Source of the DNA: Oscillospiraceae bacterium
Lineage (GTDB): Bacteria; Bacillota; Clostridia; Oscillospirales; Oscillospiraceae
DNA length: 64,000 nucleotides
Direction of reading: 5' to 3'
NCBI GenBank assembly: GCA_021770845.1
Contig: JAETQF010000005.1
Coordinates: 1-64,000 of the forward strand
This document shows, in pieces, positions 47,948-64,000 of this stretch; position 1 is the stretch's first letter, and every line of letters begins with the position of its first letter. The notes below the pieces were generated by a model that was not told where the DNA came from, searched no databases, and saw only the letters and a program-made list of their open reading frames with translations. The translations under genes were made by a program, and so were the position numbers.

Positions 47948-48827
47948 GCGGGGGGGCGGACGGCACCGCCGCCCCCGGAAAAAATGCCGCCCGCTGGTGT
48001 GGCTCATCGCGCTGGCGGTGGTGGCCGTGGCGGGGGTGTTCTGGTTCCACTGGCAGTGCTGGGGCCTCCAGACTACCCGTACCACGGCGGAGCTGGACGG
48101 GCTGCCCGCCGGATTCAACGGCTTTGCCATCGCCCACCTGTCCGACCTCCACGGCCACGAGTACGGGGAGGACAGCGGGGAGCTGGTGGAGCGGGTGAGG
48201 GGGGAGAAGCCCGACCTCATTGTGATCACCGGGGATCTGATCGACCAGAAAAGCCAGATGGAGATGGTGCCCGCCCTGGCAAGGGGGCTGGCCGCCATCG
48301 CGCCCACCTATTACGTCACCGGCAACCACGAGTGGGCCCTGGGCTCCGCCGCGGTGAAGGAGCTGAAGGCACGGCTGGTGGAGTGCGGGGTGGCGGTGCT
48401 GTCCAACCAATGCGAGATTCTGGAGCGGAACGGCGGCCGGCTGGCGCTGGCCGGGGTGGACGACCCCAACGGCTACGCCGACCAGACCACCCCGGAGGAG
48501 CTGTACGCCTGGATCCAGGAAAACAACCCCGGGCTGTTCACCCTCCTGCTGGCCCACCGGAATGAGCGGTTCGGACAGTATGCCAACGCGGGATATGACT
48601 TTGTGATGTCCGGCCACGGGCACGGGGGGATTGTGCGCCTGCCCTTTGTGGGCGGGCTCCTCGGCACTGACCGGCGGTTTTTCCCGCCCTGGACGGCGGG
48701 GCTGTACACCGTGGGGGACAGCACCCTGTTTGTGTCCCGGGGGCTGGGGAACAACACGACCCCCTTCCGGGGGTTTCGGATCTTTAACCGCCCGGAGCTG
48801 GCGGTGGTGACCTTGAAGCAGGGGTAG
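47934..48827 (+). CDS. Membrane-anchored metallophosphoesterase
   Basis: A 297-aa calcineurin-like phosphoesterase with a basic N-terminus and a single anchor ([20 protein letters not shown]), likely facing outside. Metal ligands are in [43 protein letters not shown] and [13 protein letters not shown]. It resembles UDP-2,3-diacylglucosamine-like/YkuE-type phosphoesterases; substrate unknown. Its start overlaps the helicase end by 14 bp. Confidence 0.86.
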
Positions 48828-48840
48828 GGCCCCTTGCAGC

Positions 48841-49130
48841 CCCTTGCAGGGGTGCGCCCTGCGGGGCGTTACTTTCTCTCACGTGAGAGAAAGTAACCAA
48901 AGAGAACGCTTAGGGGGTGGCCTCCGGCGGACGCTTCGCGTCCTTAGTCGGCCTCCCCCTAAGAACCCCTGTTAAGGTCAAGGGCACGCCGATTTCGGGT
49001 GGCGGGGGAGTGACCGGCGCTTGCCCTCTGGACTGGTGTCATCCCCATTGGTGCTGCCGCCCGTGTGTGGGGACAAGCCCAGGCGGTTCCCACGGTTGGC
49101 GCCTGGGGGGTGCGGGGGGGTTAGCGGGTC
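48841..49130 (-). repeat. Left arm of inverted-repeat element (locus A)
   Basis: This arm reads outward to inward as: CGCCCTGCGGGGCG, a perfect 28-bp palindrome with arms TTACTTTCTCTCAC (48869-48896), CCAAAGAGAACGCTTAGGGGG, a variable inner hairpin, CCCCCTAAGAACCCC, then AAGGTCAAGGGCACGCCGAT and a GGTGCTGCCGCCCGTGTG segment. It is the reverse complement of 49905-50190. The tip through GCTTAGGGGG matches the right arm exactly over about 52 bp. Confidence 0.85.
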
Positions 49131-49375
49131 AGCTCCAGGGCGAGACGGAAGCCGGCGCGGAAATAGGCGGACTCCCGCAGCTCGCCGATGGCGAGCTGTT
49201 CTGTCAGCAGCGTGTCGAGCAGTGACGCGGTGTTTGGATGGAGGGTTCCAAGCAGGCGCTTTACCTCGCCGTCCTGGTGGCTGATACGGACACAATATTC
49301 GCCGTCTCCATTCAAAAACTCCTCCTCAACCGCTTTACTCACACAGCTATAAAAGGTGTCCATTAGCTCAGTCAT
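49121..49375 (-). CDS. Small helical protein inside the inverted-repeat element
   Basis: An 84-aa protein starting TELMDTFYSCVSKAVEEEFL and ending FRAGFRLALELTR. It looks all-helical; the C-terminal pattern resembles short DUF6809-like proteins of gut Firmicutes (from memory). It is divergent from the XRE gene and lies between the inverted arms. The ATG at 49375 is preferred over an in-frame TTG at 49384 because AAAGGA is well spaced. Its 3' end abuts or overlaps the left arm. Function unknown. Confidence 0.62.
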   Translation of the reverse strand: MTELMDTFYSCVSKAVEEEFLNGDGEYCVRISHQDGEVKRLLGTLHPNTASLLDTLLTEQLAIGELRESAYFRAGFRLALELTR

Positions 49376-49384
49376 CGAAATCAA

Positions 49385-49473
49385 TCCTTTGCATTAAAAT
49401 GGTTGAATATGCATGAGTTATGCGTATATTATATATGCATAGTTGTTGCGCGTCAAGAGGGAGAACAAAAAAA
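49385..49473. promoter_or_regulatory. Divergent AT-rich promoter region with ATATGCAT repeats
   Basis: TTGAAT (49403-49408) and TATATT (49425-49430, 16-bp spacing) or TATTAT (49427-49432, 18 bp) would serve the XRE gene. ATATGCAT occurs at 49407-49414 and 49433-49440, probable operator half-sites. The AT content contrasts with the surroundings. Confidence 0.55.
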
Positions 49474-49683
49474 GTGAAACTTGCAGAGCGCTTACGGGAG
49501 CTGCGTGGGAAAAAGGGTGTAACCCAAAGCCAAGTGGCGGAATATCTGGGCCTGAAGCTGAGGGCGTATCAATACTATGAAAGCGGCGAACACCGTCCCG
49601 AATATGAAAAACTGATCGCGCTGGCGGATTATTATGACGTAACCACAGACTACCTGCTGGGCCGGACGGACGAGCCGCGTTGA
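49474..49683 (+). CDS. XRE-family regulator carried inside the inverted-repeat element
   Basis: A 69-aa helix-turn-helix protein: LAERLRELRGKKGVTQSQVA, EYLGLKLRAYQYYESGEHRP, and the tail EYEKLIALADYYDVTTDYLL. GTG at 49474 follows GAGGGAG. Base composition (many AAA, GAA, TAT codons) is lower in GC than surrounding genes, a sign of transfer. It pairs divergently with the 84-aa gene; the pair could be a small regulatory or toxin-antitoxin-like module, but no toxin motif is seen. Confidence 0.85.
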   Translation: MKLAERLRELRGKKGVTQSQVAEYLGLKLRAYQYYESGEHRPEYEKLIALADYYDVTTDYLLGRTDEPR

Positions 49684-49699
49684 TGTCCCCGCCCGCTTG

Positions 49700-50190
49700 A
49701 AATCGGCGGTTGCCGACTTCGCACCGGGCCGGGGAGCCCGAGAAGCTCAGGCGCTCCAAAGAAACCCCCAGCTTTTCAGTACCGGAGAAACCCAGGCCCC
49801 TGTGGGCCGGAAAAAGAAGGGGAGCCCATTCGTAATCCGCAATAGCCGGTCACTCTCCCGCCGCTCGAAATCGGCGGTGCACCTTCCACCACCCCAGAAC
49901 ATCCACCGCACCACTTAGGCGCTAACCGAGGGAACCACTTGGAAGTTATCCCACACACGAGCGGCAGCACCAATGGGGATGACACCAGTCCAGAGGGCAA
50001 GCGCCGGTCACTCCCCCACCACGTAAAATCGGCGTGCCCTTGACCTTAAATGGGGGTTCTTAGGGGGAAAGCCGACTGTGGAGATGGCCCGCCCTTTGGG
50101 CCGTCTCCACTCGGAGGCGTCCCCCTAAGCGTTCTCTTTGGTTACTTTCTCTCACGTGAGAGAAAGTAACGCCCCCGGCAGGGCGCCCCC
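49700..50190 (+). repeat. Right arm of inverted-repeat element (locus A), full-length copy
   Basis: About 460 bp, the same orientation and order as 58618-59075: GAGAAGCTCAGGCGCT, GCCCATTCG.AA.CCGCAATAGCCG, CACTTAGGCG, CGGCAGCACCAATGGGGA, CACCAGTCCAG, AAATCGGCGTGCCCTTGACC, a hairpin between GGGGGTTCTTAGGGGG and CCCCCTAAGCG, TCTCTTTGG, the tip palindrome (50142-50169) and CGCCCCCGGCAGGGCG. No gene is seen in it. Confidence 0.88.
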
Positions 50191-50237
50191 TGCCAAACGG
50201 AACCCGCCCCGGCAGGGGCAAGCAAGGAGGTCACGCG

Positions 50238-52103
50238 ATGGCATACAGCGCGGGACAGTATGACGTGGCTGTGGTCGGCGCGGGCCACGCCGGCATCGAG
50301 GCCGCCCTGGCCGCCGCCCGGATGGGCCTGAAAACGGTGTGCTTCACCATAAACCTGGACGCGGTGGGCAATATGCCCTGCAACCCCGCCGTGGGCGGCA
50401 CCGGCAAGGGCCACCTGGTGCGGGAGATCGACGCCCTGGGCGGCGAGATGGCAAAGGCCGCCGACAAGGCCTGCATCCAGTACCGGATGCTCAACCGGGG
50501 GAAGGGCCCCGCCGTCTGGTCCCTCCGGGCCCAGGCCGACCGGCGGCGCTACCAGGAGGTCATGAAGCACACCCTGGAGCTCCAGGAAAACCTGTGGGTG
50601 AAGCAGGCGGAGGTGACGGAAATCCTCACGGAGGATGGCACTGTGTGCGCCGTGCGCACCGTCACAGGCGCGACTTACGCGGTGAAGGCGGCGGTGATCG
50701 CCACCGGCACCTACCTGGGGGGCCGCACCATCGTGGGGGAGGTCACCCGGGACTCCGGGCCGGACGGCATGGCCGCCGCCCTGCCGCTGACGGACTGCCT
50801 GGTGAGGCTGGGGCTGTCCATCCGGCGGTTCAAGACGGGCACGCCTCCCCGGGTGAACCGGCGGAGCGTGGACTTCTCCAAAATGGAGATCCAGCCGGGG
50901 GACGACGTGCCCGTGCCCTTCTCCTTCGAGACGGAAGCAAAGCCGGACAACCGGGCGGTGTGCTACCTCACCTACACCAACGAGGCCACCCATCAGGTCA
51001 TCCGGGACAACCTCCACCGCTCCCCCCTGTTCTCCGGGGTCATCGAGGGGGTGGGGCCCCGGTACTGCCCCTCCATTGAGGACAAGGTGGTGCGGTTCGC
51101 GGACAAGCCCCGGCACCAGCTGTTTGTGGAGCCCATGGGGCTGAACACCGAGGAGCTGTATATTCAGGGGTTTTCCTCCTCCCTGCCGGAGGAGGTGCAG
51201 ATCCAAATGCTCCACACCATCCCCGGGCTGGAGCGGGCGGAGATGACCCGGTGCGCCTACGCCATCGAGTACGACTGCGTGGATCCCACGGAATTACTGC
51301 CCACCCTGGAGTGCAAAAAAATCCCCGGCCTGTACGGCGCGGGGCAGTTTAACGGCTCCTCCGGGTACGAGGAGGCCGCCGCCCAGGGGCTTGTCGCCGG
51401 GGTCAACGCCGCGCTGAAGATCAAGGGGGAGGCACCCCTGATTTTGAGCCGGGGGGACGGTTATATCGGGGTGCTCATCGACGATCTGGTGACCAAGGGC
51501 ACCAACGAGCCCTACCGGATGATGACCTCCCGGACGGAGTACCGGCTGATCCACCGGCAGGACAACGCCGACCGGCGGCTGGCGGCCTACGGACACCGGG
51601 TGGGGCTGGTGAGCGGGGAGCGGCTGGCCCGGGTGGAGGAGAAATACGCCGCCGTGGAGCGGGAGATCAAACGGCTGGAGCACGCGGGGGCGGCGCCCTC
51701 TCGGCCGCTGGACAGGCTGCTGGAGGAGAGGGGGGAGCCCCCCTGCCCCCACGGGGCGCGGCTGGTGGATCTGCTCCGCCGGCCCCGGCTGAGCTATGAC
51801 GATCTGGCCCCCTTTGACCCGGGCAGGCCGGAGCTGCCCCGGCCGGTTGTGGAGCAGGTGGAGATCTCGGTGAAGTACGCGGGGTACATTGAGCGGCAGA
51901 ACCGGCAGGTGGAGGAGCTGCGGAAGCTGGAGGACAGGCCGCTGCCCCCGGACGTGGACTATCTGGGCATCCAGGGCCTGCGGCTGGAGGCGCGGCAGAA
52001 GCTGGATAAAATCCGGCCGCTGAACCTGGGGCAGGCGTCCCGGGTGTCCGGGGTGTCGCCGGCGGATATCACCGCGCTGATGATCTATTTGGAGAGGGGT
52101 TAG
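50238..52103 (+). CDS. mnmG: tRNA uridine-5-carboxymethylaminomethyl modification enzyme MnmG
   Basis: A 621-aa FAD enzyme that, with MnmE, builds the cmnm5 side chain at U34 of several tRNAs. FAD/NAD motif [20 protein letters not shown] is followed by [69 protein letters not shown], and the C-terminal [28 protein letters not shown] precedes the ATG, just after the repeat tip. MnmE and rsmG, common neighbours, are absent here. Confidence 0.95.
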
Positions 52104-58274: not shown

Positions 58275-58617
58275 CTTTGGCGGGGGGCGCCCTGCCGGAG
58301 GCGTTACTTTTCCCGCGTGGGAAAAGTAACCAAAAGGACGCTTAAGGGGGAGCCGCCGGTTCGCGAGGGCCCGGAGGGCGGGCCCCCGCTCTCAGGACGG
58401 CTCCCCCTTAAGAATCCCCTTTTACGGGGGCTGTCAGATCGGTGGGTTGGGTAGATACCCTTCCGGCGCGGAGCGAGTACGGACGCGGATGCCCCTGTCG
58501 CCGCTGCCGCTGAGTGGTGTGGGTACTGGGAAGGGGGTGGGATCCATGTTTTGTGCGCCTGGGTGTCGTGTGGTGCTCACGGGTGCGGATTGGGCGCGCT
58601 GTTTGCGGCGGGGCGGT
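58275..58617 (-). repeat. Left arm of inverted-repeat element (locus B), diverged
   Basis: Outer end GGGCGCCCTGCCGGAGGCG, then a tip hairpin with arms TTACTTTTCCC/GGGAAAAGTAA (58304-58329), CCAAAAGGACGCTTAAGGGGG, inner hairpin, CCCCCTTAAGAATCCCC. Beyond that it diverges from the other copies. It lies directly upstream of the MacB-like gene. Confidence 0.75.
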
Positions 58618-59075
58618 TAGCCTGAGAAGCTCAGGCGCTGGAAAGAGAACCCTGCGTTCTCAGTGCCTGAGAAACGCAGGCCCGGCGTGGGGCGAAAAAA
58701 GAAGGACAGCCCATTCGCAACCCGCAATAGCCGATCACTCTCCCGCCACTTGAAATCGACGGTGCACCTCCCACCGCCTCAGAACATCCGCCGCGCCACT
58801 TAGGCGCCAACCGTGGGTACCACCCGGAATTGTAACGACACACGGGCGGCAGCACCAATGGGGAGTACACCAGTCCAGCCCCCACGCGCCGATCACTCCC
58901 CCACAACCCGAAATCGGCGTGCCCTTGACCTTAATGGGGGTTCTTAGGGGGAGGCCATCCTGTGAGCGGAGGGCCGCCCTTCGGCCCGGAGCCGAACCGG
59001 TGGCCACCCCCTAAGCGCGCTCTTTGGTTACTTTCTCTCGCGCGAGAGAAAGTAATGCCCCCGGCAGGGCGGGAG
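58618..59075 (+). repeat. Right arm of inverted-repeat element (locus B)
   Basis: Same order as 49700-50190 with many point changes. The tip palindrome (59028-59055) has arms TTACTTTCTCTCGC, with CGCG in the centre where locus A has ACGT. The outer end is GCCCCCGGCAGGGCG. No gene was seen in the 819-base gap between the MacB-like gene and htpG. Confidence 0.85.
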
Positions 59076-63839: not shown

Positions 63840-64000
63840 CTGGACTTCTGGGGCGGCTGTCAGGCGCCGCCCGTGGGAACCGCTTGGGCTAATAACCGCA
63901 TACGGGCGGCAGCACAAATGGGGAGAAAACGCGTCCAGATCCTGGGCGCCGGAAACCTTTAGACACGTTTTCCAAGGAAGAAGGGGGTACATAGGGGGGA
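63840..64000 (+). repeat. Partial copy of the long intergenic repeat at the window edge
   Basis: GGGAACCGCTTGGGCTAATA, CGGCAGCACAAATGGGGAGA and GCGTCCAG match the central part of the arms at 49930-49990 and 58810-58875. The GGGGGTACATAGGGGG near the end corresponds to GGGGGTTCTTAGGGGG. The copy runs off the window. Confidence 0.65.

Follow-up and report, generated by a model that had tools for sequence, protein, structure and literature searches.

An inverted-repeat element in the genome of an Oscillospiraceae bacterium encloses a divergent gene pair, encoding an XRE regulator and a DUF6809-like small protein, and is best explained as a non-autonomous mobile cassette with pseudoknot ends and swappable cargo. 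On the sequences compared, this reading is given a probability of about 0.7. The element lies in the window (the whole stretch of DNA that was analysed, 64,000 nucleotides long) with its edges best placed at approximately 48846–50195, its precise outer limits being uncertain (Table 1). Inverted ends, a patchy high copy number, filled and unfilled sites and a putative scar together argue for mobile DNA. A non-autonomous cassette with variable cargo had been proposed in the initial annotation, and this proposal is supported by cargo that differs among copies and at the orthologous site of one of them (C28b).

The layout described in that annotation is borne out. Its inverted arms comprise one stretch of 64 nt at 97% (48863–48926 and 50112–50175) and one of 164 nt at 84%, with the same perfect 30-bp palindrome at both tips. 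Such inverted arms are not a chance arrangement, since the left arm finds 68 places in the element's own genome by BLAST. When a single DNA strand is folded computationally, in its unshuffled form only, the arms are predicted to form a long hairpin carrying the genes at its head. The XRE gene has a Pfam match to HTH_3 (E 8.5e-15), and its product is RstR-like at 67 bits, under the cut-off of 80. The divergent partner, first described as an 84-aa protein, matches DUF6809 at E 3.7e-4, under the family cut-off, which is exceeded by two of the three homologues tested; an AlphaFold2 model of the protein from its single sequence was unusable (pLDDT 49). The gap between the two genes corresponds to the AT-rich divergent promoter that had been claimed. 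No transposase is recognisable, again as claimed, and six further ORFs in the element (73–113 aa) have no Pfam match at E ≤ 0.01. Elsewhere in the window, positions 1–59 lie inside another end module, of the GTTCC type, at the contig start, so that an assembly break falls in an element; an arm fragment is present at 63861–63939, close to the right window edge.

Table 1. Parts of the window element (E48) and position of a second family member, in window coordinates
Feature	Position	Strand	Basis
Left outer GC-rich tract (H0), hairpin potential, abuts end palindrome	48846..48867	+	Sequence; GC-rich tract before palindrome in other elements too
Left end hairpin (S1), perfect 30-bp palindrome	48868..48897	+	Loop bases 48882–48884 pair with 48906–48908
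Left tract T: CAAAGAG (stem purines mirrored), then ACG complementing the hairpin loop (pseudoknot)	48898..48909	+	Covariation, run-length coupling
Left inner hairpin CTTAGGGGG...CCCCCTAAG	48909..48963	+	Inverted-repeat scan
Left arm, R-type module	48955..49118	+	Inverted-repeat scan, BLAST
DUF6809-like small protein, 87 aa (84 aa from internal ATG)	49121..49384	-	Pfam, homologues
AT-rich divergent promoter region	49385..49473	.	Sequence
XRE regulator, 69 aa, GTG start	49474..49683	+	HTH_3 match
Extra 158-bp R-module copy (one more than relative G060)	49839..49996	-	Repeat scan, comparison
Right arm, R-type module	49903..50066	-	Inverted-repeat scan
Right inner hairpin	50059..50129	-	Sequence
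Right tract T	50129..50140	-	Sequence, covariation
Right end hairpin (S1)	50141..50170	-	Palindrome, end profile
Right outer GC-rich tract (H0)	50171..50195	-	Sequence
Second family element E58, 794 bp, two different end types, no recognisable gene	58278..59071	+	BLAST, end profile

An end-module profile run on fetched stretches resolves 13 complete inverted pairs in the own genome and eight strong unpaired ends, two of the latter at contig ends; elsewhere the arms are therefore mostly paired, and not always single as the initial annotation had set against a cassette. The complete elements range from 593 to 1437 bp. When their contents are listed, as the initial annotation had advised, nine of the 13 have no recognisable gene; these are 593–954 bp long, none shows a low-GC interior, and Pfam gives nothing for the longest ORF in each. 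The remaining four carry small divergent pairs of three kinds. XRE and DUF6809-like genes are found in the window element and in C28b, while C9e holds XRE with RHH (RHH_1 at 20.0 bits, just under the cut-off) and C32a a weakly RHH/Arc-like protein with a 56-aa protein that lacks any match. Two unpaired loci, C28c and C28g, carry XRE plus RHH-like and RHH-like genes respectively. Across the genome there are 48 HTH_3 matches, three of which fall inside the complete elements, which add up to 12.3 kb and would be expected to contain approximately 0.24 by chance. A defence-system role for the cargo was considered and rejected: in a search with six cargo proteins only two XRE proteins matched, both as HTH-type regulators. 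Inverted repeats in the promoter regions of C28b and C9e suggest autoregulation by XRE/RHH proteins; the same scan found no inverted repeat of six or more bases in the promoter region of the window element. The XRE protein would probably repress its own divergent promoter.

The ends share a module that consists of a hairpin, S1 (GTTAC–stem–loop–stem–GTAAC), followed by a tract, T, the last bases of which complement the S1 loop. With the pairing register read from the same sequences in which it was then counted, 100% of the cells of the loop–T helix are paired in a set of 27 distinct genus ends, and each of the three pairs shows double changes. The covariation score for these ends is 0.236, compared to 0.099 (sd 0.011) for shuffled sequences and a maximum of 0.074 when the register is slid; the count of pair types in the 27 ends is not above that of shuffles (412 of 500). 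The ends thus have the form of an H-type pseudoknot module with compensatory changes. The stem purines recur, mirrored, in the first bases of T, and stem and tract runs are of equal length in 57 of the 58 distinct genus ends: stem T-runs of 3, 4, 5 and 6 occur with tract A-runs of 3, 4, 5 and 6 in 42/42, 9/9, 5/6 and 1/1 cases. Outside the genus, in a set biased by the search pattern, the agreement is 13/18, 99/102 and 1/2. The mirror order fits a third strand that may lie along the stem. A fourth type of end hairpin (TTTTT stem, T of CAAAAAGAGC) also occurs singly, at L047:2139–2183, L048:2012–2049, L049:2517–2554 and L039:712–752, and none of the stretches read there contains an arm match.

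Arm DNA is present in 20 of 36 congeners and in none of 23 genomes from other families, and 20 fetched congener stretches yield 21 end pairs. Two of these pairs enclose ordinary genes, namely a sigma-factor locus (1.9 kb) and what reads as a tRNA synthetase gene (4.6 kb), and are taken for separate ends flanking resident genes. End modules stand beside a sigma-factor gene in two genomes, at L035:1989 (by eye) and L090:2418–4290 (Pfam).

Sites are occupied in some relatives and free in others. Searching G060, G002 and G036 with the flanks of ten own elements led to 16 fetched stretches; C28f and C32a have incomplete flank matches in relatives. Eleven of the 16 orthologous stretches have no end module (C47, C28e and C46 in both G060 and G002; C34, C16 and C9e in G002; C9e and C28d in G036), three have two ends (C28b, C34 and C9e in G060), one has a single end (C47 in G036) and one a hybrid palindrome. 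Several of the end-free sites carry some other sequence instead, and at the element-free sites no clean target duplication can be read because the junction flanks have diverged. At the C9e site in G002 (L342), the place occupied by the XRE–RHH cassette in the genome of the window is taken by an unrelated, arm-free XRE-like gene. The hybrid palindrome, GTTACTTTTCCCACGTGAGAGAAAGTAAC, is at the C28d site of G060, where both GC-rich outer tracts are kept; it combines the left half of one end type with the right half of the second type, CACGTG being the junction, and in our reading it would be the scar of a near-precise excision. Cargo also changes at a fixed site: C28b, which is filled in G002 as well (L079), carries XRE and DUF6809 in G000 and XRE and RHH in G060 and G002, and both its flanks match at 90–95% between relatives.

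The site of the window element itself, upstream of mnmG, has a match in 39 of 41 genomes, of which 30 loci were read. A check for empty sites here had been advised in the initial annotation. A complete element is present in five members of the genus (G000, G060, G002, G028 and G017, the G017 copy being gene-free), and elsewhere it is incomplete, absent or replaced: G031 has a right end only, G020 a weak end (E 6e-4) and G014 a relic, and other genomes are empty or have an acetyltransferase gene instead. Neither the site nor the cargo is constant, so the arms are not fixed here with the same genes, the other observation that the initial annotation had held would count against it. A hexapeptide acetyltransferase lies between the phosphoesterase gene and mnmG at L281:2697–3314 (Pfam), with a similar arrangement in L284, L286 and L287; this intergenic site is a variable spot independent of the element. 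Some copies are old and have been inherited, since the window element is common to G000, G060 and G002. Compared with G060, the window has an additional 158-bp arm module in this element and another in E58.

These comparisons bear on the alternative that the gene pair is resident at the mnmG site and gained its ends later, as a captured host pair and not mobile cargo. G036 has an XRE gene and a 65-aa ORF there without arms, and G028 has the same pair with arms, the 3′ end of the small ORF being replaced by arm sequence; in the G014 relic, the 3′ part of a DUF6809 gene adjoins the right outer end. Searching the 42 genomes of the genus with a DUF6809-like model gave 55 matches, spread over 21 genomes, and loci were obtained for 30 of the 55, mostly the best-scoring. 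An XRE match is present at 29 of these 30 loci. Of all 30, 13 are bracketed on both sides by inverted ends, two are one-sided and 15 are end-free (two of them with short flanks). The end-free loci, together with the arm-free pair of G036, indicate that such pairs also exist outside the cassette. However, the 13 bracketed loci fall at six distinct sites and bracketed cargo differs between relatives at one site, and a resident pair is considered unlikely.

For the preferred reading, a mobile cassette, the following mechanism is proposed. At each end the hairpin loop would pair with the tract just inside it, producing an H-type pseudoknot, and for this reason it is most likely as single-stranded DNA in folded form, such as may arise on the lagging strand, that the ends would be recognised. 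The enzyme acting on them may be provided in trans. Inside the ends lie the long arms, and at the centre either filler or a small divergent pair (XRE with DUF6809, XRE with RHH, or an RHH-like protein with the 56-aa protein). Copies may swap cargo, for which homologous recombination between their similar arms would be the simplest means, and elements are probably also lost, one loss having left the hybrid palindrome.

Comparable ends occur well beyond the genus. Matches to the pattern GTTACTTT-N6-24-AAAGTAACCAAAAG number at least 120 in named bacterial genomes, where approximately 0.6 would be expected by chance if all bases were equally frequent; the stretches listed include some from Xanthomonas, Lysobacter, Burkholderia, Mucilaginibacter, Parabacteroides, Selenomonadales, Desulfobacterales, Propionigenium and candidate phyla. 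The same ends, with lineage-specific loops, are thus found in Proteobacteria, Bacteroidota, Selenomonadales and others, and a GTTAC/GTAACC core recurs across phyla. The spread is patchy: in a sample of 149 genomes from the phylum to which the window belongs, two have them, both of this genus. Counts of hairpin–T complementarity, orientation and inverted end pairs were made on 80 of 120 fetched loci (L158–L237). Over 66 distinct pairs, complementarity of the inner hairpin sequence to T is 4.29 compared to 3.46 (sd 0.09), above 300 of 300 shuffles, and other relations of hairpin to T are also above chance (direct repeats, 8/300 shuffles; mirror, 1/300; parallel complement, 0/300). In a cross-phylum class of 23, 84.8% of loop–T cells are paired and the score is 0.184, against 0.053 (sd 0.012) when shuffled; its pairs with double changes (four) are no more than in shuffles (361 of 500). 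In 14 genomes, which were selected for already holding a pattern match, a looser pattern detects between 2 and 26 copies each, and in most of them one loop predominates, G065 being an exception; the same pattern reversed, as a control, gives one and three matches in two of the 14. Nine end pairs come from the 80 loci, two further ones (L188 and L228) being self-overlaps that were left out. In Lysobacter, eight of 11 fetched stretches contain complete elements of 451–461 bp, in which an AAAAG end and an AAAG end flank a centre that varies. In Sphingobacterium mizutaii, three like-oriented end motifs form a tandem array with an exact spacing of 456 bp (L235:1803–2744). Parabacteroides massiliensis has clusters of three to four end motifs within about 0.7–1.3 kb (G076:C1, near 477500, 536000 and 548700), which suggest nested or composite elements.

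The covariation suits RNA as well as DNA, and both cargo genes of the window element are transcribed outward into its ends; the ends might accordingly act as a transcribed pseudoknot RNA, a structured 3′ element or terminator spread by occasional duplication. Yet the orientation of 67 cross-phylum copies to neighbouring genes is unbiased (21, 18, 14 and 14, by crude ORF calls with 19 motifs inside an ORF), which argues against a 3′ RNA element, and the ends occur as inverted pairs of opposite sense. Rfam gives no match at E ≤ 1 across 48700–50300, and at seven other element loci it returned tRNAs, riboswitches and RsmW at E 0.066, under the gathering score. An RNA role for the ends is distinctly unlikely, and the structured-RNA locus with a dedicated regulator that the initial annotation had offered is likewise less favoured, given the gene-free majority of elements, the unbiased orientation and the blank Rfam result.

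A third alternative is that these are repeats of the REP or TIR type and that a Y1 (HUH) tyrosine transposase, of the RAYT or TIRYT kind, mobilises them. A hairpin with a guide-like tract resembles what has been reported for IS200/IS605 and REP sequences (PMC6006769), and TIR repeats are described as tied to RAYT-like genes in Stenotrophomonas maltophilia and others (PMC3733652). Y1 genes are present in 16 of 42 genomes of the genus, including a copy with an internal stop in the element-rich G060, and in 10 of 14 other element-bearing genomes. However, Y1 is absent from the remaining four of those 14, and it has no match in the own genome (82% complete) or in the end-rich G002, G017, G023, G027, G028 and G036, genomes that are partly incomplete. 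Nor are any of 20 stretches around Y1 genes, part of those listed, flanked by ends, although one stretch has a single end motif about 2.7 kb away. Y1 transposase, the class that the helper-gene search covered, was rejected as the helper on its absence from the own genome and on these 20 stretches, and movement by it is judged very unlikely. Other vehicles were rejected as well: plasmid carriage, as the window element has no match in PLSDB and a Lysobacter element is matched over 9–20% of its length in 13 Burkholderiales records; and viral carriage, as only seven pattern stretches are in viral contigs. No parent element with the same ends was seen among 13 own, 21 congener and 9 cross-phylum pairs, from incomplete genomes.

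Maintenance of the palindrome and loop complementarity without selection, by the template-switch repair at quasi-palindromes that makes hairpins perfect, is highly improbable, since such repair cannot copy the mirror-order run-length coupling of 57/58 genus ends and the GTTAC/GTAACC core recurs across phyla.

With the mobile cassette as the preferred reading, the end signature, supported by covariation, ties an odd locus of one bacterium to repeats in several phyla. It provides a search model for more such elements and for their mobiliser, and it suggests how small XRE/RHH regulator pairs reach different chromosomal sites. A wider proposal is made tentatively, at somewhat less than even odds: that the ends define a cross-phylum class of mobile DNA, read as folded single strands, each a hairpin with its loop paired to the adjoining tract and stapled by a triplex-like segment that matches the stem. 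If so, its loop/tract code would often be uniform within a genome and differ between lineages, its mover would be an enzyme or host process other than a Y1 transposase, and in Oscillospiraceae it would have become a carrier of interchangeable regulator pairs.

Integron attC sites, folded sites that are recognised by an integrase, may offer an analogy to the element ends. Sequence-string searches of open-access papers for the loop-pairing ends gave matches judged incidental from titles and abstract openings. The subterminal hairpins of IS200/IS605, with their guide tetranucleotides, are similar in joining a hairpin to an adjacent tract through base interactions (PMC6006769); in the present element, by contrast, the tract pairs with the loop of its own hairpin, the ends are inverted repeats and the own genome has no Y1 match. 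REP, REPIN and TIRYT repeats are likewise species-specific and palindromic and often form inverted pairs (PMC3733652 and PMC6006769), but the element differs in its loop-to-flank pairing, no Y1 association was found, TnpA_REP included, and S1 in the window is preceded by GGGGC, not by a GTAG or GTGG guide. TIMEs, miniature elements derived from Tn3, share with it a non-autonomous, mosaic and DNA-carrying nature (PMC4133298). MITEs are defined, in a definition quoted in PMC3733652, as elements of 70–300 bp with no coding capacity. The present family is like them in being dispersed, multi-copy and mostly gene-free, with terminal inverted repeats and no transposase, and unlike them in its loop-pairing ends, its lack of a parent element among those seen, its length of 593–1437 bp and the gene pairs of four of its 13 complete members. 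In mobile insertion cassettes, such as IS231-MIC231, the ends enclose passenger genes and not a transposase. The window element has the same arrangement; it differs in that no cognate IS was found, by a helper search that covered the Y1 class, and in that the recognisable cargo of the four gene-bearing complete elements in its own genome is a small divergent pair. As a transposase-less cassette, the element resembles both MITEs and mobile insertion cassettes.
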